Positions 1,222 to 62,218 of a stretch of 64,000 nucleotides of DNA are shown in pieces. Position 1 is the stretch's first letter, and the number at the start of each line of letters is the position of its first letter. Under the pieces are notes generated by a model. That model was given only the letters and a program-made list of their open reading frames with translations, was not told the origin of the DNA and did not search any database. The translations under genes were made by a program, and so were the position numbers. The stretch is from Cavenderia fasciculata (lineage: Eukaryota > Evosea > Eumycetozoa > Acytosteliales > Cavenderiaceae), in contig NW_004457644.1 of assembly GCF_000203815.1 (NCBI RefSeq), positions 496,001 through 560,000 on the forward strand, in the 5' to 3' direction.

Positions 1222-4200
1222 ATGCCTTGTATATTAAAGGTTAGAATAGGTGAGGGTAGAGACCTACCGATTATGGATAGGTCGTCTGCCCTTGCCGATG
1301 CCTATGTAGAGATAAGGTGTGGACAGACTGATCCTCAAAAGACTGATATTCAGAGAAAGACTCTTAATCCCGTTTGGAATCAAGACTTTAGATTCGAGTT
1401 TGCCAATGAAGCTGATCTTCAAGATAAACCATTGGATATTAGGTATGAAACATCAATGAACAAACAACAATGAACTGAAACAATAAGTTACTCATATATA
1501 TATATATCTCTCTCTCTCTTTATTCATATATATATATATTTTAGAGTTTGGGATTATGATTTAGTTAGTAAGAATGATATCATTGGAACTGTATTGATTG
1601 ATTTAAATTGTCTTTTAGCATCAGATGGAGCCATTCAAACTATTCAAGGTTGGTTTCCTATATTTGATACATTGAGAGGTATCAGAGGTGAATTGTTTGT
1701 AACTGCAAAGTTGGAGATATTCAAGAATGAGAACCCTTTCAAAGATGCATCTGCCGGTGTACAATTCTTTTCAAGTATGTCCAATCATCATTCAATAATT
1801 CATTGTATATAGATATTCTAACTTTACACTCTTTTTGATCATATGTATGTAGTATCAACACCATTTTCAAATTATCGAATCTCAAGTATACATGGATTCG
1901 TAGAGGAATTGATTGTTGAAAGTGATCCTGAATATCATTGGACCGATACATTCAAAGCTTCAAGATTATCAAATTTTGAAAGACAATTTCTATTATATAC
2001 TTTATCTGGGTATGAACAAACTATACATGTATTCAATGATTTTAAGAAAATATATAGATACTAATCTATTTATTTATTTATTTTTAGTAAATTAAGAAGA
2101 CAAATGGGAAAAAAAGTATTGGATATGGGAGGAAATGCAGTGTTGGAGTATAAACAACATTTTGATTTGGAGGGTGACAGTGGTATTGTTGCTCGTGGAT
2201 ATGGGACGGCTGTGACGTTGAGAAGGGTGACAGATGCTGATTTGACATCACCGTCGTTGTTGTCACCAAAGGTGGCTGGTGGAGGTGGAAGGGAGTTGGT
2301 GACTTCATCTTCATTTAGTTCGACGCATTCATCGACACACTCTTGCTCGTCAGATGACGACCATCACCATCACCACCATCACCACCATCACCACAGTGAC
2401 AGTAGTTCGAGCTCTAGCTCTAGTTCAAGTTCAAGTTCGTCTGATGACGATCCGTTGGTTCCGCACACTACCGGTGGGTTGGGATCACACGAAGTACAGT
2501 TGTACACACTCAACACGTTTCAAAATCATTTGGTGGTGCATATTGGAGGTGTCGTCAGTGTAAAGTCGGTCAAGTTATTGAAAAAGAGTAATTCACAAGA
2601 GAAGCGTGACTCGTTTTGGAATGAGATACGTAACGAGATAAAGACACATGCGCATGCGTTGGGATGCACTCATATTGTGGGGTATACAGAGAGCACGGCC
2701 ATTCAGCAGAGTGAGGATCTGTGTATCTTTAGTGCGACGGGTACGGCTGTCGTGCTCGACTTGACCCCCATTTATGCGCACTTGTCGCGCAAGATGTCGC
2801 GTGTGGACGACTCGTCAGAGGATCTGACGGGCAGCTACAAGAAGCTGGCGATCCAGCCGAGCGCGGGTGCGAGCGTCGGCAGCTACGGCAGCAACCGCAA
2901 GCCAATCACCCGCAGCGGGTCGGTGAGCGGGTCGATCGACGAAGAGGGCAGTTTCCAAGAGACGCTCTTTCGTCGCGCGACACACCAACAGCATCAACAG
3001 CAGGAGAGCAGCGGACGTGGACGACGCGGTACACGACACACCAAGCATGGACATGGACGAGAGGCTGATTGCGCAGTCTGCCATATCCCGTATAACCACG
3101 AGACATCCCCCTTTGGCAACCAGCACTACCGCTGCTCCATGTGTAAAAAGAACTATGTCCCCGAGATCCTCCTCGCGACCATCGAGATACCCCCCGGCAC
3201 ACCCGTCTCGGGCAAGGGGTGTCTAGTGCAGTCGCGTGTCTGTAGAATCAAGAAAAAGGGCACCGGTGGTGACTCGGCCACACAGCTGTCCGACTCGGTC
3301 CCCTTTATCGAGTACGACCTCCACAACCAGCTCATGTACAAGCTTAAAGTGCTCGGTATGAACGCTGCATTTGGTCTCAAGACCCAGATCACCTTTAGCG
3401 ACACGCTCGTCATTGGCGTGGCGACCGCGACCGCCGTCTTTTTGACGCCACTCCCCACCCCACCCGTGCTCCAAATTGCACGAAACATCACCGAGAATGA
3501 AGACAGCAAGTTTTTGCAGCTGCTCGACATCCAGCGCAAGATCGAGGAGCTGTGTCGCTACAACAATGCACAACTGCAGGGTGCACCCAAAACCATCACC
3601 CCCGATACTTTTGAGCGATACAACTTTGTACAAACCAAACAACATGGACACAACCATCACCACCACCATCATCATCATCGTGGAAAGTCGCCGGCTGGAT
3701 TGTTGCTGTCAAATAGCGAGACGGAGGGATCGAAACAACCCGCAGCAGCAGCCGGCACAGATTCAGCGACAGTCGAAGAAGGAGACAGTACATCTGAAGG
3801 ACAACTATCCAAGAGTGACGAGAAAAAGTCTAGAAAGCATCTCAAACAATCCAAACAACAACAACAACAACAGACGACAACATCTAGCAGCAGCAAAAAG
3901 AAGAGTAAAAAGAGTAAAAAGTTCTATTACAATCATACATCTTCGAGTGAGAGTGATGATGATAATGCCAACTACAAGAGGAAAAAGGGTGCTGGTGTAT
4001 TATCATCTGCCAAAAAGAAGCAACAGCAGGCAAAGAACAAATCATCATCGTCATCACGTAGAAAGCGTATCACCCAATCATATTATGATGATGGAGATGA
4101 TAGTGTTGTGCATACAGGTACATTGTCATCGTCGTTTGACGCAGCTGCGTCGATAACTGAGGATTCGACTCATGATGAATCGCAGACTTCGTCGTCGGAT

Positions 4201-5697
4201 GAGAGTAGCGATGAAGGTGTGGTGCGCCATCACCACCGCTCGCGTCGACATATTAACCAGAGTTCGGGCCCATCTATCCGTACGGCCAGCTCGTCGATCA
4301 ATGCAGGTCGCAAGTCGTCGTCGTCGTCGAAACACACGTCGGAGCGTCAGATCAAGCAGAGTCGACTACGCGCCATGTCATCATCGTCGGGTGAGGAGGA
4401 CACGTTACCTTCACTCGACAAGGGTAATGATGCTAGCAGCACGTTTGTCGTTGAAGTGGACGACAAGACCGATGAAGACAAGATGACGACACTACTCGAC
4501 TTTTACACGCCTCCTGGATTCTCGTTGTGCAACACCGAGGTGCAGCCTGGCCAGGTTAGACCGATCCAAAATGTTCGTCTCATCACTGCGATCCGTCGTG
4601 TCGAGTGGGATGTCGACAGTCAGTACCTCAACAAGCAGTTGTCGGTATTGTTCAACTCGTTGTACGATTCCATCATGTTTAAGCTGCGCGAACTTGCCCC
4701 ATGCATCATTTGCGGGTTGAATGTGGACATTGAAATACCCGAAGACGACCAGCTGCAGATGTTGATCACCGCAATATGCGTCATTGAGAATGAAGACTAT
4801 CTTTTGATGCCGTCCTCAACATCAACCATGCAGATGCAGCAGTTGTACCAGCAGACACCCCCACAAATGGCCGACGCTGCACTACCCATCCCACCACCCA
4901 TATCGTTGTCGTCGATGGCCGGTAAACTCAACATCCCCCAGACCATCCACGTGCCTTCCCTCACCCCACCCGCACCTTCCACACCAGCTGTCACGTCGGT
5001 CAACACACCGTCCAAATCACCCCACCACCACAACAACCACCATCATCTACTCCATTCACTCGACCAAGTTGCTTCACAGGATCCGGCCGACCTCCAATTC
5101 GACATGTCTCCTCCACGGTCACCCATGAAGCGGTCAATCGACGTGTCGACGCACAACGAACGTATCTACGAGCTATTTGGGTCGCAACAGCGTGTCGTCG
5201 AACACCGCCATGTCGAACTGACCCCACTGTCCTATCTTCCAGGATGTCGTATGGAAAAGTATCTCGGACGTATCAATATCCATCTCATCAAGGAGAGTTT
5301 CTCGGTGCGTGAGAGTGGTGGTCTCGGTGTGTTTAGTCATGTCTTTATCACCGAAGCCAATGCCATCACCCGATCCCAGGTACTCAGTCTTGGAGGCAAC
5401 GCTCTCGTTGGCTATCACATTGACGAGTTTAATCTCATCCTCGATTCTGGGCCCAAAGGACAAGCCTATTCACTTATTAGTATCAGTGGTGATGCTTATT
5501 ACTCTACACCAATTATTCAACAACAACCTCAACAACAACCCCCTCAAAGTGGTAACATCAATTCAAGTACAAATCCAACCAATATTGGTAATACATTTAC
5601 ACCTATCAACAATTCATCTGGTATTCCCAATGTTGTATCAACTTCTGGTCTTTTAGTTCAAGAACCAACAAAGAAACAAATGATGGCATCGAAATAA
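1222..5697 (+). CDS. C2 domain protein of the C2CD5/CDP138 family
   Basis: Four exons (1222-1442, 1545-1774, 1853-2009, 2088-5697) join in frame to about 1405 residues. The first about 110 residues form a C2 domain starting PCILKVRIGEGRDLP, with the usual LNPVWNQDF segment. After the C2 domain comes RRQMGKKVLDMGGNAVLEY and FDLEGDSGIVARGYGTA, the signature that follows the C2 domain in C2CD5. Near residue 530 a CAVCHIPYNHE...CSMCKKN pair plus EILLATIEIPPG matches the zinc-ribbon-like part of the same family. Animal C2CD5 binds calcium and phospholipid and takes part in insulin-driven vesicle fusion of glucose transporters; here a membrane-trafficking role is inferred only. The protein is longer than animal forms because of His, Ser, Lys and Gln runs (His runs at 2363-2395 and 3655-3681). 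Internal exon sequence from about 2760 to 3560 is clearly richer in G+C than the ends. Confidence 0.88.
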
Positions 5698-20462: not shown

Positions 20463-22226
20463 TTATTTTTTGATTGGAGTATTACTTGGATAAATATGTA
20501 TATGGTTTCCATTTTTTCTAAAATTTAAATAGATTGCACGGAAATCCAATGGACTTTTATTCTCCAAGTCGATGATGTTTCCCAATCTACGTTGTTGTCG
20601 ATAGATTCCACCGAAAAAGGTTTCACCTAGATTCATCATCACATAACCATTGTCTAATCGTCTAATGTAGATGTCCAATGTGGTCAAAACCGTAAGGCCT
20701 AGATGTATATGCTCAACATTTGAACAATTGATGATTTGATCGATTCGAATACTGCAATCATCATTGTGCAAAGGTACATCGCTACACTCGATGTTGAGTT
20801 TCTTGAGACGATGTGGTAATATAAAATGAAGAGGATTATCGGTTATTGAACTATTATCATTGTTGATTATCATGGTTGTTGGAAGTATGAATATTGATGT
20901 ATCTTGGATTTTTGTGATATGACATTCAAATTTTTCCAGTGATGTTGGTAAATAGATGATTGGTGGTGGATAATCACCTCTTTCGTAGAGCAATTTACGT
21001 AGCGTTGGTGGGTAATTGAATGGTGATTCGTAATTGGTTGATGTTGCAAATTTAACCAATCCACTTGGGAATATCGCTTTTTCGGGGTTAATAACATTGA
21101 CCCACAGATCTTTAACAGAGTCTGGAATAAACTCTGATGATACTGTGCATTCGCAGTGCGAAATATGCAATATTTCTAATCCGTGGGGTAGTGTCCATGG
21201 ATCAAGCACTGCTCCATTGATGAGATACAACTCTAATCTCAAGAGGCCATGAGGAAAAAAGTCTGGTGGGAGTCTTGAGCTGGTACCCATCGACATCTTT
21301 GTAACCTTGGGTGGAGGTTTGGTCGAGCCAAAGAACCGATAGTCCATCGAGAGGTGTTGCAGGTTGGGTGGGAAGAACGATTGTTTCATGGTGTGTGGGT
21401 CTAATGGTAGTCTAAGGCAGAGTCTGGTGAGTGATGTGTTGGGATTGGGAAGGAGAATGTTGGTGGCTGGCATGATGGGATCGATGAGCGAAGAGGAAAG
21501 ATACAAGTCTGTTAGAGATGTCAGGTTGGATAGATCAACCGAAAATACATCCCTACAAGCATAGGAGATTTCCAAATGGGTCAGTGATGGTGGGAATTGA
21601 ACGTCGACTGGTAGTACTCTATATGAATTGATTGTCAATGATGTCAGAGATGGCCATTGAGAGATGGATGATGGAAATCGTGGTAAGATTGTCTTGAAAT
21701 GTACTGTCATGGTAGTGATGGATGTGAGCAGTGGCGGAATATCTTTAATTTCGTCAGAGAACTCATTCAATGATAGAGATGTCACTTGAGTAGGATCTTC
21801 GACAGATTCCAAGATAGATTCTCTTGTTGGCCATACACTGTGGATCGCCAACGAGGTAGTTGTAGTTGGTTTGGAGAGTTCTAATGCTTTTTTGGTTTGA
21901 AAGGCCAGTAACGATGCGTTGAAAATCTCTTTAAACGGTTGCATATGTGAACTAACAACTGAGTACATGTGTGTGCCCGCATACAATCGACGAGTATCAT
22001 CTGGTTTAATACCTTTAAAAGTAATAACCTGTGCATACATTTTCTTAAACTCTCTATAGTATGCTTTACATGTCATCAACAGACATACTATATCTTGATT
22101 ACATTCTAGGTCATTGATGATCTTGAGTAATGTTAAATCTGATAATCCTCCTCTCGGTGCTAATGACAACAAAGAAGGGGATGATGAAGATGATGATGAT
22201 GACTGTTCACTCATTGTTTTATACAT
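20463..22226 (-). CDS. FNIP/LRR-like repeat protein with an F-box-like N-terminus
   Basis: Single exon of 587 residues. After a Ser run, LSDLTLLKIINDLE and NQDIVCLLMTCKAYYREFK form the F-box-like start seen in many dictyostelid FNIP proteins. The middle is a solenoid of about 22-residue units with the LPxxLTxLxIxx pattern, for example FPPSLTHLEISYA and LPHGLEILHISH. The C-terminus has the family ending IRRLDNGYVMMNLGETFFGG. Such large, lineage-expanded families may act as substrate receptors of ubiquitin ligases, but no function is proven. The gene is the intact member of a tandem pair with the broken copy just upstream, and both share N-terminal and C-terminal DNA sequence closely. Confidence 0.8.
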   Translation of the reverse strand: MYKTMSEQSSSSSSSSPSLLSLAPRGGLSDLTLLKIINDLECNQDIVCLLMTCKAYYREFKKMYAQVITFKGIKPDDTRRLYAGTHMYSVVSSHMQPFKEIFNASLLAFQTKKALELSKPTTTTSLAIHSVWPTRESILESVEDPTQVTSLSLNEFSDEIKDIPPLLTSITTMTVHFKTILPRFPSSISQWPSLTSLTINSYRVLPVDVQFPPSLTHLEISYACRDVFSVDLSNLTSLTDLYLSSSLIDPIMPATNILLPNPNTSLTRLCLRLPLDPHTMKQSFFPPNLQHLSMDYRFFGSTKPPPKVTKMSMGTSSRLPPDFFPHGLLRLELYLINGAVLDPWTLPHGLEILHISHCECTVSSEFIPDSVKDLWVNVINPEKAIFPSGLVKFATSTNYESPFNYPPTLRKLLYERGDYPPPIIYLPTSLEKFECHITKIQDTSIFILPTTMIINNDNSSITDNPLHFILPHRLKKLNIECSDVPLHNDDCSIRIDQIINCSNVEHIHLGLTVLTTLDIYIRRLDNGYVMMNLGETFFGGIYRQQRRLGNIIDLENKSPLDFRAIYLNFRKNGNHIHIYPSNTPIKK

Positions 22227-22381: not shown

Positions 22382-23917
22382 TTATTTTTTGATTGGAGTA
22401 TTACTTGGATAAACATGTATTTGATTTCCTTTAACTCTAAAATTTAAATAGAGTGCACTGAAATCTAATGCCCTTTTATTCTCATTCCAATGATGTTTCC
22501 CAATCTATGTTGTTGTCGATAGATTCCACCGAAAAAGGTTTCACCTAGATTCATCATTACACAACCATTGTCTAATCGTCTAATGTCGATATTCAAATCT
22601 ATAAAATGTAAAATACTCATCTTTAGATGTTCAACATTTGAACAATTGATGATTGGATCGATTCGATTACTGAAATCATTTTCATCAGATACTTGGACAC
22701 ATGAGATTTCTAGATTCTTGAGACGATGTGGTAATACAAAATGAAGAGGATTGTCTTTAGTATTATCATTGTTGATTATCTTGGTTGGGGGAAGTGTGAA
22801 TATTGATGTATCTTGGATTATGTTCATTTCAATATCCAATGATTCAAGTGATGTTGGTAAATAGATGATTGGTGGTGGTGGATGATCACCTCTTTGATAG
22901 ATCAATTCACGTAACGTTGGTGGGTAGTTGAATTGTGATTCGTAATTGGAGGATGTTGCAAATTTGACTAGTCTACTTGGAAATATTGTTTTTTCGGGGT
23001 TGGTAATACCGTCAACACACAAATGTTCAACAGAGTCTGGTATATACTCTGGTGTGATGGTGCATTCGCCGTCTATAAGACTCAATGCTTCTAATCCTTG
23101 GGGCAGTGCTCCAGGGCCGAGGGCTGCTTCATCATTGAGGAGATACAAATCCAATACCAAGAGACCTTGGGGAAAGAAGTTGGGTGGGATTACGGGTGTT
23201 TACCGACATTTTAGTCACCTTGGGTGAAGGTTTGGCCGAACCTCCAAACAACTCGAAATCCATCATTAAATATTGAAGGTTTGGTGAGAAGAATGACTGT
23301 GTCATGGTTTGTGGGTCGAGAGGGACGGAAATATCCAGAGCAGTGAGTGATGTGTTGGTATTGGGAAAGAGGATATTGGAGGCTGGGACTAGATCCATGC
23401 CCGAAGAGAAAAGTTTGAGCGTTTTTAAAGATGTTAGGTTGGATATGTCAAGAGTAAATAGTTGACCGTGATGAGGATGGTGGTTGATATGCAAGTTGGT
23501 CAGTGACGGTGGGAATTCAAAGACTGGTATCCTCGGAGAATTTTAACAAGGTCTCTATTGATGGCATCCCAGTGAGTGTTGACAGCGGTTCGATACTGAC
23601 TTCTTTGTTGTTGTTGGTTTGAAGATGTGATGCAATTTAAAGGAGCTCATTTGAGAACTAACAAAAATGAGCGTGTTCACGTTTGTCGAACCCGCATACA
23701 ATGTACGAGTATCATCTGGTTTAATACCTTTAAAAGTAAAAACCTGTGCATACTTTTTCTTAAACACTCTATAGTATGCTTTACATGTCATCAACAGACA
23801 TACTATATCTTGGTTACATTCTAGGTCATTAATGATCTTTAGTAACAACAAATTTCTCCTCCTTGAAAAAGAGGAAGAAGATGATGATGAAGATAGAGAG
23901 TCATATCTTTCATTCAT
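22382..23917 (-). pseudogene. Broken tandem copy of the FNIP/F-box-like gene
   Basis: The same architecture as the neighbour at 20463-22226 in the same orientation, with near-identical N-terminal DNA and the same last codons before the stop at 22382-22384. The reading is damaged: stops lie between 23555 and 23495, roughly 110 residues of the neighbour are missing there, a frameshift lies near 23160-23190, and a last one near 22480 ends the frame early at 22465. Three open pieces remain (23917-23555, 23494-23132, 23160-22465). It probably arose by tandem duplication and then decayed. Use of introns to bypass the breaks is unlikely since no good GT/AG pairs fit. Confidence 0.75.
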
Positions 23918-24252: not shown

Positions 24253-27200
24253 CACAACATCACAGTCATCTTTATCATCATCTCCAGCACTTACTTCTTC
24301 TTCACTTCAACAACAACAACCTCAACCTATAATCAAACCAATTATAAAGACAAGTTTAGTAAACTCACGATTAGAGATCAATGATGTTGTACTCAAAGAT
24401 ACTTGTGTGTTGAGAAACTTTAAGTTAATCTCTGTCGTCGATTTCGATGTACAGGTTAACTTGCGAACAGATCTCTTGCAGAATGTTATTGCCTTTCAAT
24501 CGAGCAATGAGAATCTTCAAGACCACGAATCAGAGGTAGCAGTACAAAACGATGACTTTAATCAACTCTTTAATGAAGTCAACTTTATAGAGTCGATTAA
24601 ACTCAAACCACATGAAACAAAGAATATTGTCATGTCATTTAGACCATCTTATATTGAAAAGGTAAAAAGATAATAAGAAGAAGAAGAAGGAAGAAGAAGA
24701 AGAAGAATGATCATTATTAATACATACAACTTCTTTTATCTTTTGTAGAATGAAGAAGAGATAACATCATTTGCAAATAATCGTAATGACAAATTTAACA
24801 ATTATTTTGAAATGAAGGGAAAGATATACTTATCAACTACACCATTGGATATAATAGATGAACAACAACAACAAACTATACAATCAACAATGCAAAAAGA
24901 TGTATGTTAAACAATAGAGATACTTATCTCTCTATTCTATTGCTAACAATTAATTATTTTATTAATATTTAGGTGGCAATTGATTTTTCTGCAAGAATAT
25001 GTAGATCATTATTAAAAGTAGATGTAAATGAAATTATATTTGATGATTGTGTAGTTGGAGCAAGTTATGTTAAAGATATAACTATTTGGAATCGATCAGA
25101 GATGCCATTGAAATTCTCAATCTATTGCAAGGAAAAGATTATGAATCTATTCGAGTTGACAGATTATGCAACATCTCTACCACTTTCACCAGACAGTCAA
25201 ATCATCCCATCCTACTCATCAATGGGCATTCGTCTCACTTACAAACCAATCTCAATCGGTCAATCAACCTATAAAATGAAGATTGAAAATAGAAATAATA
25301 ATTCAAATTATGAACTCATCGTCATTCATTCTTCTGTTTCTGCTGAACAACAAGTTGTAAGTAGTAATGAAATATTATTCAAATTGTTTCAATAATCTTA
25401 TTTAATTAATTGATTTATTTATATTTTTTTTAGGAATTAATTCAAGTTAGTAATAATTCATTGGATTTGGGTGATTGTTTTAGTGATATGCCAACATATG
25501 GTACATTCACTGTAAAGAATATGTCAGAAGAGACGATTGATATCAATTTCAGCAGTGATTTGGTGGGTGAGCAGGTGACGTTTCATTTAAAGGAGGACGA
25601 TGATTCGTCGGGCAATAGAAAGAAGCCGGATGGATCGTCAACACTGGCGATTGGCGAGCATAGGGATGGCGACGGCACGTTGTTACAGGGCAAGGGTGGA
25701 GAGACGGTCGGTAGCAGCCACAAGGAGAAAGAGCAGTCGATCGAGGAGCTGACGCTCAACCCTGGTGCAGAGCGTGTCATTCAGATTCGGTACTGTCCAT
25801 CTGCAGTGTTTCCAGGTGTTGATAGTCGCTCGCACAGACTATCACCCAAAAACTTTAGAGTGTTGATAAAGTATAGTCGCGCACACAACAAGAGTAAGCA
25901 GCGTAACAAGACAATCAAAGTGACATCGAGTGTGTGCTCGTCGGCGGTTCGTGTTCAGGAAGAGTTTAATCTTGGTGATTGCACAGTCGGCACACTCAAG
26001 CAGCCGAGCATCCACTTGCAGAATTTGTCAGATTTGCCAACCACGGTGCATCTTCGATACCAGTCCAAGGTCATTGCGTTCAAGACACATACGGTGCAGT
26101 TACCTGCCAATCAGACGGTCGACCTCGTGTTTGACTTTTTGCCGCGCAAGAATAATCCCGAGTACCGCAAGCAGATCACCTTTATCAACGCCAGTAATCC
26201 ACACAATGACCAGTACCTCGAAGTACGTGCTAATAATGCAGACGAGCAGAGTGTGTCGATCCACAGTCGCTACTATCATCTCGAGACACCCTTCTCACGA
26301 AACTACATCGACTTTGACGAAGTCATTGTCAACCGTCCTTCACTGCGTACATTCAACATAAAGAATACGAGCAAGGGTAATCTGGCGCTACAACTCAACA
26401 CGTCGCTGCCAGAGGAGATTCGGCTGTACCGACAAAACACGTGGACTGACTTGTCGTCACTCGCCAGCACCATCCAGTCGTACCAGCAACAGCTCGGTCG
26501 TCAACACCTCATCCACGAGTACATCAACAAGTTTTTCGAAGGTGAAGATATCGAACCGATCGGCAAGTTGTCATCTCGAAAGATTCAATCGTCCAATAGT
26601 CAGTACCTCGATCTCGCCGTCTCTGGTAGCAAAGCATCTGCCAAGGACAAATCTTCTTCTTCTTCAGCTTCTATCCAACAATCAAACGATACTAGTGGTA
26701 GTGGTAGTAAAACACCATCCATCTCTAGTTCTACAAGTGGAACTTCTTCAAACACTCAACAATCCACATCATCAACAAATACATCATCCTCATCAACCAA
26801 TAATAATAATGTAAATAGTAAAGAGACATCTTCATCATCATCATCATCTTCTTCTTCACATACTCCAAATGTAATTGTTGGTACAAATAACAATAACAAT
26901 AATAATAATAAGAAAAAGAGTGTTGGTGACAATTCAACCAATAATTCTAGAACCAATTCAAGAGCAAGTTCACCAACACTTGAACTTGAAAGAGGATTGG
27001 CAGGATTAAGAGAGAGTAACGATCTAATGGAAGATAGTGATTTGGATGGTGGTGGTAACAATAGTGGTAGAGGTATATATAATGGCGACAATATCACCCT
27101 TTCACAATTGGTACAGTCATTTGAAGACAATGATTTGCCATTGTTTACAGACTATGAAAGTGAAACAAGTTATATCACCTCTCAAATTGAAAAATACAAA

Positions 27201-30200
27201 CAACTCGAAGTATTGATTCAATCGAGTCAATTGGTTCAAGCAAATACTATTGAATTGGCCAAAGATGAAGAAATCACAATCTACATTGTATTTGTTGTCA
27301 ATCAATCCAAGAGACCTTGGTTGGGTGGTAAATTGAAAAACATGGAAGCTAAATTATTCTTGTCCTTACAAAAATTGGATGAAAATGATATTTCAAATAA
27401 TCCAAGTCGTGAATTAAATGTAAGAAAAATAGAGATATAAATAATTAAAAAAAAGATATAATAATAATTAATGAAATTAATCTATTTTATTTTATTTTTT
27501 TATAGATTAGTACCAAAGTTTGTAAATCAATTATGGATTTGGCACAAAGAAATATTAATTTTGGAAATATTGTACAATATGATTATCGTGCCAAAACATT
27601 GGTTATTAATAATTTAACTCAAGTACCATTGATTTATAGAATTAAAAAATCTGGTTCTATTACATCTGGTAATTTAAATATTGTAAATGCTGATAGAATG
27701 GGTATTATTAGACCATTTAGAAAAAGAGTAAGCAATTAAAAAATATTAAAATATTATATTTGTTGAGCTATTATTTATTTACTTTTTTTTTAATTTTCTT
27801 GTAGGAAGTACAATTTGTATTTAAACCAACATTTTCAGGAATATTTGATGAGAAATTGATTATTGAAAATATTTATGATAATGCCAATAATCAAATTGTT
27901 CACATCAAGGCAAATGTAAAGAAACCAAGACATTTCTTCCTCAATACATTGGATGTTGATTTTGGTGTTGTCATGATCAAAGGAAAGTCACCAACCAAAC
28001 GTATCACCCTTACAAATACAAGTAATCAAAAGAGAACATTTAAAATTATTGATGATACTCCAAGGTATGAAAAAATATTCAAATATCTAATATTAAAAAA
28101 CAAATGTATTAATAATATTTTACTTTAATTTAGTTCATTTGATAGTTGCTTGAATAAATTATTTTTCAAGTTGGAAGAGAAATTGGCATTAAGTATTTCG
28201 AAAGAGACTGAAGTAGAGATTGATTTATTGGAAAGAAAATTAAAGATTTGTAGACGTAAAGGACAACATGAAAAGGCATTAAAGATCAACATGCAAATTG
28301 AAAAGTTGAGAAATGTTGGAACCAATACATCGATCCCTGTTAGTCGTGCTACATCTCCTTCAACCGATATGATGATGGATAATGCTGAATCCAAGTCATT
28401 GGATCAAGAGGGTGGTGAAGATAACAATTCTTCTTCTTCGTTCACCGTTGTAGAGGTTGCCGAGACTGCTACGGTTGTATCACCACAAAAACCAAACTAC
28501 AAGATTGGAGACAACTCTATTACATTTGAAGTAGAAGGTGGTGGCATTCAAAATGTACTAGTCTACTTTTCACCCATTCCCAAACCAGGAAGAAGACAAT
28601 GGTACGGAAAGGAGGAGGGAGGTGGATCGATCCTTGTCTACGAGTCCAAGAATATCGATGTTACCAAAAAGATCAATTACACATCGACTATTTGTTTCGA
28701 CGAAGAGACATATAGACAAAATATGATGAATACTTCATTGTCTGATGCATTTTCTGGTCAGTCTGGTATACCATCATTGTTGTCGATAAAGTCACCTTCA
28801 CCAAAGTCATTGGCATCACCTTCGTCGCCAGTCACTGGTATCTCTACTACCACCACCACCACTACTACTCAATTGGGTAGTTCCAATTCATCGGCATTCT
28901 CAATATCAAATAGTAGTTCTATTGGTGTTTTACGTCCTCTTGCAGTTAAACCATCTGCCTCTACTTCTACTTCTACTACTAGTACTACAACAACTACTGC
29001 TTCTGCTGCAACACAACAAACTATATTAACAGCATCACCACCAAAACTTGAAATGGGTGAAGTTAGAGTATACGAGGATATTCCATTTAGATTTACATTG
29101 ACAAATCATACAGGATACAAAGTTCCATTTGAATTATCAATCATCAATAATCAACCTTCCAACTCGCAACAACCAGGTACAAACAAATCATTGTTGCTCA
29201 AGGACAAGAATGGTGTGATCGATCCATATGGTAGAAAGACGGTTGAAGTCATTTGCCAACCTCAGGTACCAGGTCGCCAGACCCACACCATTTCCATCAA
29301 GAGTCCAGCTCATCCACAATATGAAGGAACATTCACAGTCTCTTTGGCTCCACGTCCACCTCAATATGTTTTATTCCCAGATTTACCATCATCTCAAACT
29401 ATTGAATTTGGTGATTGTTACTATGACAAATCTAAAAAGTTTTCGAAAAATTCATCATTTAGATTAGATAATCTTTCAAACGTAAGAAGACAAATTATAT
29501 ATATAATAACATATCATATTTCTAACTTTTTATTTTTATTTATATACTCTTTAGAAATCACTTTATATTTCAATGAAATCAAATTTATCAATGCAAATAT
29601 TTGTTTATCAAGATGAGAAATTTACAAAACCAGCAGATAATATCTTTTTAAAGGGATATGAAAAGACAAAAGTTTGGATTTGTTTACAACCAAGTATGAC
29701 ATCTGAGAATTATGTAGATGGACAATGTAGAGAATTGGTTGGTGGTATTCGTATCAAGGTTCAAGATACAGATTATAACTTGCTCTATGAAAACTCGATC
29801 AAGTTTACTGCAACTGTTGGCAAGAGTATTTTACGTGTCGGAAAGACACTGATTGACTTGGGATCAACTAGAAGTGCAGGAGATGTGATTGGTGGATCGT
29901 TTGGTATTGCTAATCTGACCACTTTGCTTCCTCTCAACTACACACTCACTCCATCCAAGAATATCAAGTTGACCAAGACAATGGGACGTTTGGAAGGATC
30001 CGAAGTGCAACATTCACTCTCCAAGGAAAAGATATCGTTTTCTTTGCATACCTCTGTCTATGGATTGTACGAGGAAAAGATTACTATCCACAACCAAAGC
30101 TGTACCGGTCAGAAACTCGATGTCATTGTTCGTCTGCTAGTCGATGACAGCTCGTTGCTCACCAACTTGCCACTCAACTCAAATTCATGTGATTTCCTTA

Positions 30201-33200
30201 AATTTGACGATATCTATGTGGCACCGGCACGTGATGCCAACTTGGTTGACAAGAAATCTACTGGTTTTGCCATTGCCACGTATATGGGGTCAGACGAGGT
30301 ACTTAAACAACAAAAAATCACGCCATTCACCATGCGTAACTTTTTAAAGTATGATATCCGTATCTACCCCAAGTCCAACATCAACATTTATCTCTTTTTG
30401 CACGATCCACAACCTGACGAACTCAAGGGATGCACTTTGACCAACGACAAGAGAAAGTCGATGCGTCTGTGTGGCAAGCCATTTGTCTTGACCAACGACC
30501 AAAAGATACTCGTCTATCCAGTACCACCTGACCCCGAGTCGGCACTCACCCCCAAAAAGAAATCGTTGCTTTGGAAGGGTCGCAAGGTTCAGTTTATGGG
30601 AACTCTTGTGTTTGAACGTTCCGATTCGACACACTACCCAATCGGTCCAGGCGAGGGCAAGACACACATCTCCAAGCTCGTCAGTATTTCAGGCTCGTTC
30701 TGTATGTCATTTGGTCGTCTCCTAACTCCAGAATTGGTTGATATTGGTAGAATCGGTTATGAAAACTCTTGGAAAGAGGTCTATATCAACATTGATATTC
30801 AAAACTCTAGTGAAATCCCTCTCTATTTGAAATCTCTTCCACTTCCATCAAAGTCTATGAGATTCCTTTTAACTAAACCAACAACTAATAATAATACCAA
30901 CAACAACAACAACAACAACACTGCTACGACCACCACTTCTACTACCTCTACTACTACTACTACTACGACTATAAGTATGAGTACTGGTACAAGTAACACT
31001 ACTAGTTCATCACAACTTGGTGAATTTGAGGAATTCCAAATTCCATCATTAGAATCAAAACAAATTGTATTGGCAATTGATCCAAGATTGATTGAAAAAA
31101 CAACGGCTGGACCAATATCATTGTCTGTTGGATTTGACAATTTGTACAATCCATTGAACAAGTTACTAGTCAATGTTAATTTATTCCACACTTTACGTGT
31201 TCTTGGATTTGGTAGATTAAAGGATAATAATGAATTTGTTATTCCTACCATTTACCATCCTCCATTGGTTGGAGCATCGTCTCAGTCGGATGATTGGTTT
31301 ACCATTGAAAACACATCGACCAAGTCACTCAAGATCAATGTAGATATTGAATTGTTGCCACATATTGCCGATTTGATCACTGCCGAGATTGTACACAAAT
31401 CATCCAATACACCAATTCCAAGTTTCCAAATGCGTGCTGGTGAAGTACTCGAAGTAAGATTGCGTGCCAAACCTAGACTCGACCGACGTATGGAAGCACC
31501 AATTGAGGAGATGACCCTTTTCGGTAGAATGACCATTGCTGCCAACAACTACCCACTCGAAGTCGTTCCACTTAGAGGTACCATCCTCCCAGGCCAAACA
31601 TTCTCCCTCTCAACACAGAGAATGAATCTTCACGCCATGTCACGTATTTCAAGAGGTGATCACGGCGACGAAGAGCAACGTTTGCAAAGCTTGACAGACT
31701 ATTTTAAGATTCGTAATCTCTACTCTCACTTTCCACTAAAGTATCGTGTAGAAGCTGTATTCAAGAGTGATGTAACGACGTTCCCAAGCAAAGAGGTTAT
31801 TAAAATCGAGCCAGAAGAAGGAGAGATTCCACCAAACGAAACTGGATCGGTCAATGTCATTGTTGATCTACCACCAAACGATGATATTCCTCAAAATAGT
31901 ACCTTCCAAGTATTGATCACTTCTCTCGACTCTTTTAACAAGGAATCACAAAAGATGATGGTTAATATTTTAGCAGGTAACAAACCAATGTCAACAACTT
32001 CCTCTCCATCTACAACCCCTCTCCCAACACAACAACAAAATATATCTTCATCTTCATCAAATAGTGTTAGTGAAATCATTCAACCAACACAAGAAGTAAA
32101 GGATAAGACTGTGAGTGATGTCAAACAACAACAACCAATACAAACAGTTGAAAAGGTTTCAACTTCTACTTCTACTACTGCTACAGCTGCTACCACGACA
32201 ATTTCTACAACACCGGTAATTGAAAAGACACCAACAGTTCAACAACCTCTTACAACAACTCAAACTGTTCAACCTACTGCTACTCAATTAGATAGAGAAT
32301 CAATTATAACAAGTGGATCAAATACAATTCAACAAGTTGGTACACCACCAATTATAGTTGGAGAACCAAAGATATCATTAAAGGGATGTACACCAATTCC
32401 AAAGGCAAAGAATAGTTATGAGATTAATTTGAATCAACAGGAATTCTCATCTGGAAATGTTCAATGGGAATTGACATTGGAAAACAGTTCAAACCGTTCT
32501 TCACAATACCTTATGTATACTACCAAACAAACCGATGAATCGTGGCTCAGTATGAGTAGAAATAGTGGAAAGATTGAAGCACATGGAAGACACACTATTA
32601 CACTCATCTTTTCAACCAAAAAGATGGATATGTATTCAACCTATCTCATCATTGAAAACAAGAATAATCCAAGTGACATGAAATCGATTCATATACAAAT
32701 GGAGGTTGTCGCCAAACAAAACACTCATTTCACAGTATGGGTCGATGGAAGAAACACAAGTACTCCTTCTATTGATTTGGGTGATGTGTTTTACAATTGC
32801 ACATACACTGATCGTTCGTTTATCGTTTCAAACACCTCTTCAATGCCTCTGGACTTTGTGATCACCACTTCGTTGCTTCCATTCGATCCGACCGAGGTCT
32901 GCTTCTCGCTGTCGCGTTCCTATCTGCGCTCGTTCAACTCGCTCTATGTCGATGCCAACTCGCAAGTCAAGGTGTTTATCTTTTTCCATCCGTCGTCGCC
33001 ATCGGGCAACAACCTCAACATCACTCCCGACATTCAAGACGCATTTTCACAAAAGGAAATCAAGATATTTGTAAACTGTAGATTGATTCGTGACTATCAA
33101 CATGTCATCACGTTGAATGCTACTTGCAGATACCCACAGATCCGTCTCTCCGAATACAACACTGTCTTTATCGGTCGTGCTTTTACTCCAAGTTCCAACA

Positions 33201-34576
33201 ACCCACCACAACAAATCAAGTCAGAAGAAGAAGCTGCTGCTCTACAACAATCAGGAAGCAATAATATCGTTGCATTAAAAGATAGAAGTGAACTAAAGAA
33301 ATCTTATGAAGCTCCAAGTGGTAGTAGTAGTACAAGTGGAGGATCAACTGGAGGAAGTGGAAATAATACGCCACCATTGACTGTAACTACCTCAACAACC
33401 ACCACACAACAAAAGGGTGGTTCATCTAAAAAGATTGATGTTGAATTTACAACCAATGATAGCCGTGAAGTTGTATTGTACAATAACTTTATCGGTGGTA
33501 AACCACTAGACTTTTGTGTAAAGTCTGGCACAACCTTTTTCCTTATTGAAAGCGTCGAATGTGGACGTATTGAATCAGATGGAACTAGTTCGAGTCGTAT
33601 CCTAGTACAACCAAACACAACAGCCATCTTGGAAAATATTAATATGTTGATCAAGGAAAAATACCTCGAAGAACATATTATCGTTTACAACAAGAATAGA
33701 TTGTCAGAGAAATACATTGTATCGCTTCGAATCACAATTGGAAATCTAACAGCCTTTTCCTCGTCGTCTGGTATCAAGGGAGGTTACCATTACCGAAATT
33801 TGGAATACCGTATCACCAAATTCAACAAAAAGTTTAAAAAGTTTTGGTACAAGATCCAACAACAACACCAACAACTATTGACAAGTTCTTCTTCATTGTC
33901 TCCTACTACAAGAGTTGAACAAAATCCAAGTTCATTGCAAACAACACAAGATCTAGTCTCTCAATCCTCTTCATCATTGTCCAATACAACTGTTTCTTCT
34001 CCAGTGGCCACCTCAACCTCTGGTGATAATATCATCATTACTAGTGTTGACACCAACATTGATGGAGGAGATTCAAGAGTTCAAATCGAGAAATTAAAGG
34101 ATTTGATTGAAATGGGAAGCAAGAATGAAAAATATCACACATTGTTATTTGATCTTCATCATGTAACCAATGAATTAATTCTTTTTGGTTTGAAAAAACA
34201 AGTTGGTCAATTAACTTCAAATTTAGCTAGTTTATTTTATTGGTAAATAGAAATAGGAATAGAAAAGAAATAATTTAAAAGAGTAATCATTTACTAAACT
34301 TTTTTTCATTTTACTTTTAGTAATTTATTAAAACAAAATATATTTAGAATTACTGTATCACCTATAAGAATAGAAGAATTAAGATCAACTTCTATGTTTT
34401 CAGCTTGTATTCACAGTCTAAATGAATTCCTTAGTTATATTCCAGAAAAGAGAGAAGATTTGGCTGAATTAAGAAATCTTCAAGACCTTTTCAACAAAAA
34501 ACCATCACCAAAGGAAAGTGATGATGAAGATGACGATCAAGATAATAATAATTCATTTAAAAAGAAAAGATCTTAA
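24185..34576 (+). CDS. Giant protein of repeated ASH/MSP-like domains
   Basis: Nine exons: 24185-24661, 24749-24901, 24973-25356, 25434-27419, 27506-27727, 27805-28064, 28134-29481, 29555-34242 and 34321-34576. They join in frame to about 3257 residues. Many beta-sandwich units have the ASH/MSP pattern of a LDFG-like strand, then FxxxNxSxxPxxF: examples are NSLDLGDCFSDMPTYGTFTV (near residue 345), LDVDFGVVMIKGKSPTKRIT, LIDLGSTRSAGDVIGGSFGI and SIDLGDVFYNCTYTDRSFIV. Between domains are Ser, Thr, Asn and Gln runs. Proteins with such domain chains in other eukaryotes (Hydin, CFAP47, CFAP65, DLEC1, Cep192) act at cilia or centrosomes. No signal peptide or membrane segment is seen. A cytoskeletal, perhaps centrosomal role is inference; a Cep192 relation cannot be excluded. 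Confidence 0.75.
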
Positions 34577-57964: not shown

Positions 57965-59921
57965 ATGTCTACTATTAAACAACATCAAAGGTCAGAAAGT
58001 GGTAATGGGAACATATCAGGTACAGTGGCCCAAGTGTCTTCAACCACAACAACAACAAACATAACCACATCTTCATCCTCACTTTCTTCTTCATCTGATT
58101 GGAAGAAATATTCTTCAGGTAAACTATAAACTCTAACATATATATAATATATATTATTGTTTGTTCATTATTATTTATAAATCCCTTCCTTTTTTATTTA
58201 TTTATTTTTAGATTTAATGGAACATCAACCAAGTAGTCATTATTCACCACCTCAATCACCGTTGAGTGTTTCCGATCCTCTTGGGGGATACTTTCAAAAT
58301 CTTAGATCACCAGATACCAATGTCCGTAAATCGGCCGTTGAGAATATTATTAGTCTATTGACCGCACCAGAAAATGAAAAATTATTAAGAACAAACATCA
58401 CAAATATAGTAGTATTGGCAACAGAATCACCATTTGAAGAAATTACAGATGCATTTTCAACTTTATTATCAACTATACAAGTAAGCAAAAAGAAATAGAT
58501 ACAAGACTATCTATAATAATAATATATTTATACTTGTTTACTTTCTTTCTCTCTAGGAAAAATATCATATACCAAAACAAAAAACAACATCATTTATAAA
58601 TGAAACACAATTACCACCATTAAATAGTAATGATCAATTAACAAAGAGATTATTTCAAGAAGCATTTTTACAATCGGGAAGAGTCAACCATATCATACGA
58701 TTGTTGGGCTGGCATCCACAATATTTGGAGAGATTTTTAGCATCGTACAACAAGGTGATGCGTGACCAAGGACCACTTCCACTGCCATGGAGAAACTATA
58801 TAGGGATTTTGGCATCGGCAAGATACAACTGTGGCTATTTGGTGGCATTGCTCGAACACGAATATCTGCATAGTGGAGGCGACCCCAAGTGGTTGCAAGG
58901 CGTCGATCACATCCCACAAAAACTAAAGAACCTCTTAAAGATTGTAGAGATGATGGCACATCAACCATGGCTCTTGCCCAACGTCGATATCGAATATTTG
59001 GTCAAGGGACAGGATGCCTGGTCAATAGCAGAGCTCGTGCACGCGATGATATTGATTTGTACATTTTTATCGTTGGCAGGTTTTGTCTTTTCGTGCGGTA
59101 TCCTGCCCGAATATGGACTAGCCTCGACAACAACACTCGACGAGAGAACATCGTTCTCGCTCAACGAAAGCGACTGCGAAGTGGAGGATTTGACAGCGTC
59201 GGAAAACACCATCAAGGTGATGGAGCTGCTCAAAAAGAAAAAGGAAGAGCAAGAGGAAGACGACTTTGAAGACGGCGGGCCCGAGATTGATCGTCAACAA
59301 GAATTTCACAATGCAGGCAACATTGACGCCGACAATAGCAGCAGCAGCAGCAGCGGCAGCAGTAGTTTGGCCACCACCTCGTCGTCGACTTATGGCGGCA
59401 TCGTAGACATGTCTCGCTACAACTGCAACAATCAGCTGACACACACCGACTTTGATGTCTCATCAAAGGATTATACCATCTTTTCCGTTCAAGACTACTC
59501 GTGGAAGGAGCACGGCTATGAATTGGTCAGTCGTATCTTTCCCGACGCCGCTCCCCTCCTCGACGAGGAGTTCTCTTTTGTCTATACAATGACCTACTAC
59601 CGTTTCAACAATAGCACCGACATTGACACTCTCCCCTTCCGTAGAGCCGTCTGGTACTATGTACAGCGTGTCAAGGGTATGTGTCACGACGACTACAACT
59701 ACCAAGAGGTCAACATGTTCCTCAGTCGCAATCTCAAATACTATGTCAAAAAGGCTGTCTGCTTCCCAGACAATATCTCAAAAATCGATTACTCCAAATT
59801 GGGTTATGATCTCAAACCAGATGAAAAATGTCATTTAGCTCTCTTGGCTGTATGTTCTCATAAACAAGCAGCTCTTCTCTATGGTCTCTATACTGTAATG
59901 TCTTATCAAAATCGTAGATAG
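57965..59921 (+). CDS. Sestrin
   Basis: Exons 57965-58118, 58212-58480 and 58557-59921 give 595 residues. The family core begins LQSGRVNHIIRLLGWHPQYL, then ASARYNCGYLVALLEHEYL and the matching HQPWLLPNVDIEYLV and FVFSCGILPEYG blocks. The C-terminal half has SRIFPDAAPLLDEEFSFVY, FRRAVWYYVQRVKG and the conserved HDDYNYQE, the part that in animals contacts GATOR2. Sestrins respond to stress and amino acids and restrain TORC1; the N-terminal half has an AhpD-like peroxidase fold. Here Cys233 and Tyr235 are kept but the position of the catalytic His is Leu240. An acidic and Ser-rich insert lies between the halves (about 59210-59400). The N-terminus before residue 60 is low complexity. Confidence 0.93.
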
Positions 59922-60005: not shown

Positions 60006-62218
60006 TTATTTGGTTTTTGGAGCACCCATACCAAGAGTAATTTCATTTAAATCATCACCATAGTCTCCAACATCTTCATCTCTTTTCTTTAGTAGGAATT
60101 TATCTTTAATTTTATCTTTTAATGTTTTCTTTTCAACTTTTTCATGTGTTGTTATGGTTGTAGTGGTTGAAACAATTGGATCAACAACGGCAGGTGAAGT
60201 TTTGTTACGATGATCAAAAAAGTGATGATGTTTACTTCCAAGACTACCACCACCTCCAAGAGAAGAAGATTTGGCTGACATTTCTTTCTTTATGGTTGTT
60301 GTAGTTGTTTTGTTATTATTATCATGATTCAAAATATCATCTGTCAATTGAACAGTTTTACTTGTTGGTGATCTTATAGATGAATAATCATTTGATTGTC
60401 TTCTTGCTCCATATAAAATACCACCCATTGATGGTGAATCTTTGGTCGAGGTGGTTCGGTCAGGCAAGACACCTGTTATTTTGGACAAGGCAGGAATCAT
60501 TGATGCACCATATGGAATGAATTGATGGATAAATGGTAGGATTGATTTGGTACGATCCAATAACTTTGGAAGGTTGGGTAGTACCTCTTCCATGTGGGGT
60601 ACGAGGAATTCAAGGTACGGTGCGAGATAGTCGAGTTGTGGGATAATGACGTCGATGTGATAGACCAGAGTACCGAGATGAGGTAAAAGAGCAGGTAGGT
60701 ATGGTGAAATTTGATGCATATGTGCTGCCAATGCATCAATGTGAGGGAGGAGGTATTTACAGTGTGGCAAGAGTGCTCCGGCATAGGGCATCAATACTCC
60801 AATAAAAGGACTGAGCTTTTTAATGTGAGGCAATAGCATTGATGTGTATGGGAGGAGCAAGTGGATATTGGGGACGAGTTGATCAATGTAGGGAATGAGA
60901 CTGGCTTGTGAATCGAGTAGTTCGTCAATGTGGCCAGACAGTAGAGTAAAGTGGGGCATCAACACTGGAATGTATGGGTAGAGCTTGTTGATGAGTGGGA
61001 TGAGACGATGACTGTGAAACATTAATAGGGCCGAGTGTGGCAACAACTGGTCGAGATAGGGTATCAACTTTGGTGAATAAGGTAGTAGTATTTTGCATCG
61101 TGGTGCGAGTATATGTGCGTATGGCAAGAGTTGTTTGGCGTGAGGGATGAGGATCTTGATGTATGGCAAAATTTCGTTAATGTGAGGCTCGAGAATTGGA
61201 ATATAGGGGATGAGATCGTCACCATGGACCAGTAAAAGGTCAATGTGAGGTGAAAGTACTTGGAGATGTGGCGCCAACAGTGGAATGTATGGTGATATTT
61301 GTTTGACTTTGGGTATAATCAAACGAGCGTGAGGAATGATCGAGTTCATGTTGGCGAGAATGATATTGATGTGTTGCATGATAATATCCATATCTGTCAT
61401 TATTTGTGGTAGAAATGGTTGGAGTTCGGCTAGTCGTGGCAAAAGCATATCAACGTGTGGTAATAGTTGGTCGATATAAGGTATAAGATGGTCAGTGTAT
61501 GGAAGTAAAAGGTACATGTGTGGAAGTAGTCTTGGCAGTTCTGGTACCAATTTTGGTACATATGGCATTAGAGAACGACATTTTGGTAGTAGCATGTCAA
61601 TATGAGGTGCTAGAATCGATGCTTGTGGTGCCAAATAATCGATATAGGGTACAATATCATTTAGATAGGGTGTCAACTTTTCAATGTTGGCAGCGACCAC
61701 TGATATATTTGGCATTAAAACGTCGATATGTGCCATTAACAATCCAAAATGATTCGATAGTTTTGGAAGGTTTTGTAGTAATAGATCCATGTGAGGTTCA
61801 ATCTTTTCGAAATTAACCAATAATACATCCATATGTGGTGCCAATATATCGATATTATCCATCAACATTGGCAATCTCTTTTCCAATTGTGGATATCTAT
61901 CCAAAAGTGGATCTCTATAATAAATAAAGGTTCTAAAATTTGGTAAAATCTTATGTCTATATTTTAATAATACTGGAAATAATTTTATCAAATTTCTAAA
62001 AAGAAAAGAAATAAAAGAAAAAGAAGAAATTAATATTACTTTTGTTTATTTATTTATTTGTTTGTTTATTTATATATTATTTATATTTACCTTGCTCTTG
62101 ATAAAAGTTTTAAACTATCATATGGATATAATATGATATAAATGATTGATATTATAATAGTCGCCCATAATGTAGTTGTTAAATAGATACTATTTGTATC
62201 AACAATTATTAAATTCAT
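60006..62218 (-). CDS. Membrane-anchored protein with a 66-unit heptapeptide array
   Basis: Exons 62218-62091 and 61995-60006 give 705 residues. Residues about 14-33 (LTTTLWATIIISIIYIILYP) form one hydrophobic segment near the N-terminus. From about residue 87 to 548 the sequence is an unbroken array of about 66 seven-residue units with the consensus L-L-P-[HY]-[IL]-x-x, such as LLPHIDA, LIPYIDQ and LAPHLQV, without a single insertion. After it is a polar tail with Ser, Thr and His runs and a basic helix (KTLKDKIKDKFLLKKRDED). A Pro in most units excludes a normal coiled coil, so a regular solenoid is expected. I do not know a characterised family with this repeat; a membrane-linked scaffold or tether is only a guess. 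Confidence 0.85.

Follow-up and report, generated by a model that had tools for sequence, protein, structure and literature searches.

What kind of protein is built of dozens of consecutive seven-residue units, most of which carry a proline? The question is raised by a gene at positions 60006-62218 of the window, by which we mean the whole stretch of 64,000 nucleotides that was analysed. The reading that we favour, with a probability of about 0.5, is a long tether: a rod formed by an amphipathic helix, anchored in a membrane, curved by its prolines and packed against partners.

The initial annotation had placed this gene at 60006-62218. These limits were borne out; the gene, however, lies on the minus strand and is spliced, and translation of the plus strand gives 60 stops. 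After GT-AG joining, two exons on the minus strand yield a 705-residue product with a single stop at its end. Exon 1 (62091-62218, minus strand) carries the start codon, a transmembrane segment and the first heptad-phased residues, and accounts for residues 1-42 plus two bases of codon 43. It is followed by a GT donor at 62090, after which the spliced frame stays open through all 705 residues, and by a 95-nt, 12% GC, GT...AG intron (61996-62090, minus strand) that contains stops in the exon 1 frame. Exon 2 (60006-61995, minus strand, stop codon included) translates to 663 residues. The 95-nt GT-AG splice (62090 to 61996) is put forward from the DNA, and the heptad phase, which runs on across the intron (LKLLSRA, RNLIKLF, PVLLKYR, HKILPNF), supports it. 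The reading frame is genuine: codon usage of the array correlates at 0.81 with that of six other ORFs of the window when read in frame, as compared with -0.16 to 0.49 for the five other frames.

Outside the array, a hydrophobic segment at residues 13-31 (62126-62182, minus strand) is a probable signal anchor; the 19-residue hydropathy maximum is 2.02, centred on residue 20, and that of the array is 1.59. The single N-terminal hydrophobic segment from which membrane attachment had been proposed earlier is thus present. It is followed by Lys/Arg at K37, R41 and R43. Residues 44-70 (61914-61994, minus strand) already have hydrophobics in the heptad phase of the array (LIxxF, LL, ILPNF, FI) and are listed as units -4 to 0. 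The C-terminal tail (residues 554-705; 60009-60464, minus strand) is polar and of low complexity, with a mean hydropathy of -0.97, a codon-usage correlation of only 0.46 and AT-rich third positions, and is nearly all coil in a single-sequence AlphaFold2 model.

The array itself consists of 69 contiguous heptads (residues 71-553; 60465-61913, minus strand) with no insertion or deletion. A strict, unbroken period had been described before for about 66 heptads at residues 87-548; the period held, while the extent had to be widened. Indeed, there were 138 identities at a lag of seven residues, against 44.7±6.2 in shuffles, and among the lags from 1 to 70 identity exceeded 0.12 at multiples of 7 only. 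Lag and Fourier analysis of the array gave no 11- or 22-residue signal. The unit consensus is [D/P/K]-x-L-[L/I/M]-P-[H/Y]-[I/L]. Column 3 is L, I, V, F or M in 69/69 units, and columns 4 and 7 are hydrophobic in 57 and 60 of the 69, respectively. Column 1 is non-hydrophobic in 64 units (hydrophobic in 5, Pro in 12), column 2 is mixed (hydrophobic in 35/69), column 5 is Pro in 50/69, and column 6 is His in 25 and Tyr in 18, so that 43/69 have one or the other. Units without Pro cluster toward the N-terminal end, with 8 among the first 11: the Pro-poor units 1-11 (61683-61913, minus strand) have the column-5 Pro in 3/11 cases, and the Pro-rich units 12-68 (60486-61682, minus strand) in 47/57. 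Similarity at lags of 4 and 6 units exceeded that in shuffled unit orders (p 0.0015 and 0.0045; 12 lags tested), a weak sign that the array may have grown by blocks.

At the DNA level the units have diverged, as had been claimed from the outset: Tandem Repeats Finder listed no 21-bp array at the heptad array, mean DNA identity between units was 0.419, and at positions with the same residue codon identity was 0.333, compared with 0.341±0.006 when codons were permuted. Since codon identity is at the permuted level, the DNA of the array is saturated. Saturation, taken together with the in-frame codon usage, argues that the array is old and that its pattern is maintained at the protein level. The exact period and the saturated DNA thus support the initial view that the spacing is under selection, acting on the amino acids.

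The Fourier spectrum of hydrophobicity peaked at 103 degrees per residue, that is, 3.5 residues per turn, the 7/2 periodicity of coiled coils. On a helical wheel drawn at this angle, columns 3, 7 and 4 are adjacent and span about 103 degrees, and the Pro column lies about 155 degrees from the centre of this hydrophobic stripe, nearly opposite to it. The initial annotation held that Pro excludes a standard coiled coil. We found, however, that the register is exactly the coiled-coil 7/2 and that Pro faces outward; because Pro lies almost opposite the stripe, it does not exclude coiled-coil geometry. Proline within a helix bends the chain away from the Pro side, so all bends of the array would point toward its hydrophobic face, and with Pro in 50 of 69 heptads about one backbone carbonyl per Pro unit would be left unbonded. 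When bends of 10 to 26 degrees were combined with a residual twist of -20 degrees, background or assumed values that make the outcome a model and not a measurement, the chain coiled into a left-handed superhelix with one turn per 16 to 11 heptads or so; at 26 degrees this rough model has about 11 heptads per turn, a radius of 15 Å and a pitch of 69 Å.

Structure prediction favours helix for the array. Single-sequence AlphaFold2 gave mostly helix in the array, in a poor model whose pLDDT averaged 45.3 (56-70 in blocks of ten residues across residues 81-250 of exon 2). An assisted run took the middle third of the array (161 residues) and was given the two remaining thirds as further rows of the alignment, matched heptad to heptad and gapped by complete heptads; these rows are from the same protein and are not homologues. 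Its five models spanned pLDDT 51.4 to 77.6, and the best (77.6, pTM 0.59) has helices at 4-12, 14-19, 21-26, 28-68, 70-138 and 140-160, amounting to a nearly continuous helix in which stretches of 41 and 69 residues pass through five and nine Pro units, respectively. Disorder, named initially as the outcome that would refute a new fold, was therefore not what this model with same-protein rows predicted. The undescribed fold with a regular superhelix did not emerge either: what the model contains is a single helix with hardly a break. Foldseek found no significant fold match, although such a search tests the shape of a lone helix poorly.

A separate feature of the assisted model (60948-61430, minus strand) is that single-residue interruptions of the helix occur at column 6 of all five Pro-less units and nowhere inside the 18 Pro units. 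In this model the pattern is opposite to simple breaking by Pro and is not accounted for by the rod reading; the single-sequence model follows no such rule.

We propose that the product is a single-pass membrane protein, anchored at its N terminus, the bulk of which would be one very long amphipathic α-helical rod in strict heptad register. The period, the stripe, the position of Pro and the saturated DNA, all observed directly like the open frame, support it, as do the predicted helix, the match of an array profile to designed barrels given below and the N-terminal hydrophobic segment. Against it speak the carbonyls that so many prolines would leave unbonded, the same-protein rows and wide spread of the assisted models, the interruptions at Pro-less units, the scarcity of Pro in the matched barrels and the lack of a significant Foldseek match. 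Columns 3, 4 and 7 would line up as an unbroken hydrophobic stripe for packing on other helices, either of other copies or of the same chain. The column-5 Pro, nearly opposite the stripe, would bend the helix slightly every two turns toward the hydrophobic face, and several chains could in that case wrap into a curved, multi-stranded rope or tube. The positively charged residues that follow the hydrophobic segment point to a cytosolic rod. At the heptad rise of 10.5 Å, 69 heptads would be about 720 Å long if straight, and we infer that it serves as a lengthy structural spacer or tether that projects from the membrane; like this role, the oligomer, the curvature and the topology are deduced. 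Should the rod prove to be helical and to assemble, most heptads would be shown to tolerate an outward Pro while the coiled-coil register is kept for about 480 residues, and regularly placed Pro may determine how a long assembly curves. The array would thus be a ready natural sequence for a direct test of a protein-design rule.

Relatives were sought by profile, genome and pattern searches. Exon 2 passed no Pfam or NCBIfam cut-off, and single array segments gave weak Pfam matches to six families (best E 0.033). A xenorhabdolysin-B-like NCBIfam match (E 0.015, with 14.8 bits where the cut-off is 40) and phmmer matches to the PDB (E 0.013-0.88) were set aside. A five-segment profile matched designed six-helix barrels in heptad phase (8qad, E 6.9e-11; 9r1o, E 8.3e-9); the best single stretch reached E of about 0.02, and the aligned stretches contain hardly any Pro. 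As the matched barrels are synthetic, this is a likeness of pattern and not of descent. A search of the same genome (31.0 Mb, 21 contigs), in which the best candidates were scored, returned the gene itself and two further sequences (E 4.4e-4 and 9.1e-4), and thus no paralogue was seen among the candidates scored: the former is the RNA polymerase II C-terminal repeat in another frame, and the latter a low-complexity stretch aligned to the tail of our protein. The polymerase repeat (L002, 1483-1953, plus strand) is open in this other frame, with heptads such as NFTKLFT, and matches the array weakly; a 21-bp repeat can thus mimic a heptad array.

A scan of viral contigs with the single protein confirmed no relative. 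A three-unit pattern retrieved 20 viral and 38 prokaryote stretches, including FFPYFPP tracts in phages and short ORFs whose units are almost identical. Since this pattern misses the heptad gene itself, its negative carries little weight, particularly in prokaryotes, for which it was the sole scan. Two further patterns, both of which match the heptad gene, found 62 and at least 120 stretches in viral contigs, with no array of comparable length among the matches listed. When 233 loci and the window were scored, the next-longest arrays among the matches listed were the polymerase tail (L002), with 27 units, and L164, with 24 units and a unit DNA identity of 0.83. Unit DNA identity was below 0.60 in 23 of 249 rows (the window included, L001-L003 excluded, L001 being the locus of the heptad gene itself), and among the matches listed the longest of these besides the window had 17 units (L197 and L062). 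A Lachnospiraceae ORF (L027, 4881-5147) has 12 LLPRLKT-like units that are a 21-bp DNA tandem (87% matches), and its opposite strand is also open.

An unlikely, though still serious, alternative is that the helix rests along the surface of a membrane or of a lipid droplet, in the manner of perilipins or apolipoproteins, with Pro letting it follow the curvature. The array is indeed long, repetitive, gap-free and amphipathic, its hydrophobic face is broad, the protein has a membrane segment, and the array matched apolipoprotein A-IV weakly (E 0.45 and 1.9). The excerpted text of PMC5889406 describes 29 tandem 33-mers without indels in perilipin 4, and a footnote there mentions an amphipathic helix kinked by seven prolines. 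However, the lipid-binding repeats named in that excerpt are 11-mers forming a 3-11 helix (PMC5889406), whereas the lags of the array are raised at multiples of 7 only, not at 11, 22 or 33, which fits helix-helix packing. The net charge of the array, -10 (28 K+R versus 38 D+E), also argues against a surface helix.

An α-solenoid, in which short, interrupted helices stack in a compact superhelix, appears improbable. The repeat is punctuated by Pro, two of five array segments matched HEAT_EZ weakly (E 1.3 at best), and the interruptions of the assisted model at the 5 Pro-less of 23 units could be corners. A seven-residue unit, however, is too short to hold both a helix and a turn, the 41- and 69-residue helices of the assisted model run through several Pro units, and exon 2 stayed below every solenoid cut-off: in Pfam its only match of HEAT/ARM type was Importin_rep_6 (E 1.8; 9.4 bits against a cut-off of 23.9). 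The initial statement that this is not a known solenoid family is supported for exon 2 at these cut-offs.

Very improbable, in our estimate, is a variant in which the proline-curved helices form a tube, the anchored chains being arranged as a left-handed multi-stranded barrel whose Leu/Ile-lined lumen could carry lipids between membranes; if true, it would be an all-helical counterpart of bridge-like lipid transporters.

The strongest database match of all was to PHROG 305, tail length tape measure (exon 2, E 1.7e-14), which would suggest that the protein is, or descends from, a phage tail tape measure gained by transfer. Furthermore, tblastn (E up to 10, best 1e-4) hit 371 of 50,697 phage records, and the 20 listed were all annotated as tape measure. 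Two such proteins, one of them encoded by the tape-measure gene of phage Deloris (L004, 1637-4174; the other is L005), carry a run of five consecutive heptads, e.g. LVPAFIQ LVPKIAE LMPSIVS, four of the five with Pro. The PHROG 305 match, however, survived shuffling of units (2.5e-12) and reversal of the array (2.7e-9) and was lost on shuffling of residues, in controls that used the 483-residue array with one sequence per kind, the original match having used the whole of exon 2. The match thus reports the period and not ancestry. Lags of 7, 15 and 22 are raised side by side in the one tape-measure protein that was measured, and the intron, the codon usage and the neighbours of the heptad gene are eukaryotic. 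Descent from a tape measure is rejected by the shuffling and reversal control and largely refuted, and we give it almost no credence.

That the array is an artefact, either non-coding satellite DNA or another gene read antisense or in the wrong frame, has next to nothing left of its probability: similar words elsewhere are often DNA repeats (unit DNA identity of at least 0.6 in 17 of 18 scored prokaryote rows), as in the 21-bp tandem of L027, and the polymerase tail matches in another frame, but here there is no DNA-level repeat, codons are saturated, codon usage fits in frame at 0.81, and the opposite-strand frames of the array hold 25-40 stops.

The window contains other genes. A sestrin (PA26, E 1.3e-153) adjoins the heptad gene at 58701-59921, and an ARIH1-like ubiquitin ligase lies elsewhere. 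Such genes mark the genome as eukaryotic, and its gene content and composition suggest a social amoeba. A 1557-aa ORF at 29573-34246 (plus strand) matches the fourth Ig-like domain of CFAP65 above cut-off (37.5 versus 27 bits); upstream of it, an ORF at 25461-27440 resembles a Cep192 domain below cut-off. To our knowledge social amoebae have no cilia, so the CFAP65 match is surprising if the host belongs to this group. Two adjacent minus-strand ORFs, at 20463-22226 and 22465-23160, have similar stretches; the shorter matches FNIP repeats, which are typical of social amoebae, and the longer has no match at E 0.001. They look like a tandem pair of which one has been shortened. A 1197-aa ORF at 2104-5697 (plus strand) has C2CD5-type YbjQ-like domains (E 3e-69).

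Among known systems, HEAT/ARM-type solenoids share helical repeats with the array, which differs in its period of 7 and in scoring below their cut-offs with exon 2. Actinophage tape-measure proteins (PHROG 305) share hydrophobic stretches with Pro and a short LxPxIxx heptad run in the two proteins looked at, but have lags of 7, 15 and 22 (one measured) and a run of only five units, and the match of the array is independent of unit order. Perilipin 4 and apolipoproteins, as presented in the excerpt of PMC5889406, are likewise very long, gap-free, amphipathic and repetitive; the array, in contrast, repeats every 7 residues, not every 11 or 33, has Pro in the majority of its units and comes with a transmembrane anchor. 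The designed six-helix barrels have strict heptads with the L-L-x-x-I spacing in the same phase as the array, the helix of which is predicted, whereas the array has Pro in 50/69 units and a His/Tyr column, and no designed loops between helices. In the excerpted text of PMC8503928 a Type-2 α-helical barrel has an hpphhph heptad with four hydrophobic columns; the fourth of these in the 8qad register corresponds to column 1, hydrophobic in only 5/69 units of the array. Finally, a canonical coiled coil has uninterrupted heptads with a 4-3 core spacing, as found here (columns 3 and 7; 69/69 and 60/69), and no regular Pro within the helix, whereas here Pro is regular (column 5, 50/69; column 1, 12/69). 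The regular Pro places the array outside the definition of a standard coiled coil, and it resembles a coiled-coil variant, in the form of a membrane-anchored rod of heptads studded with Pro, more than an established new fold.
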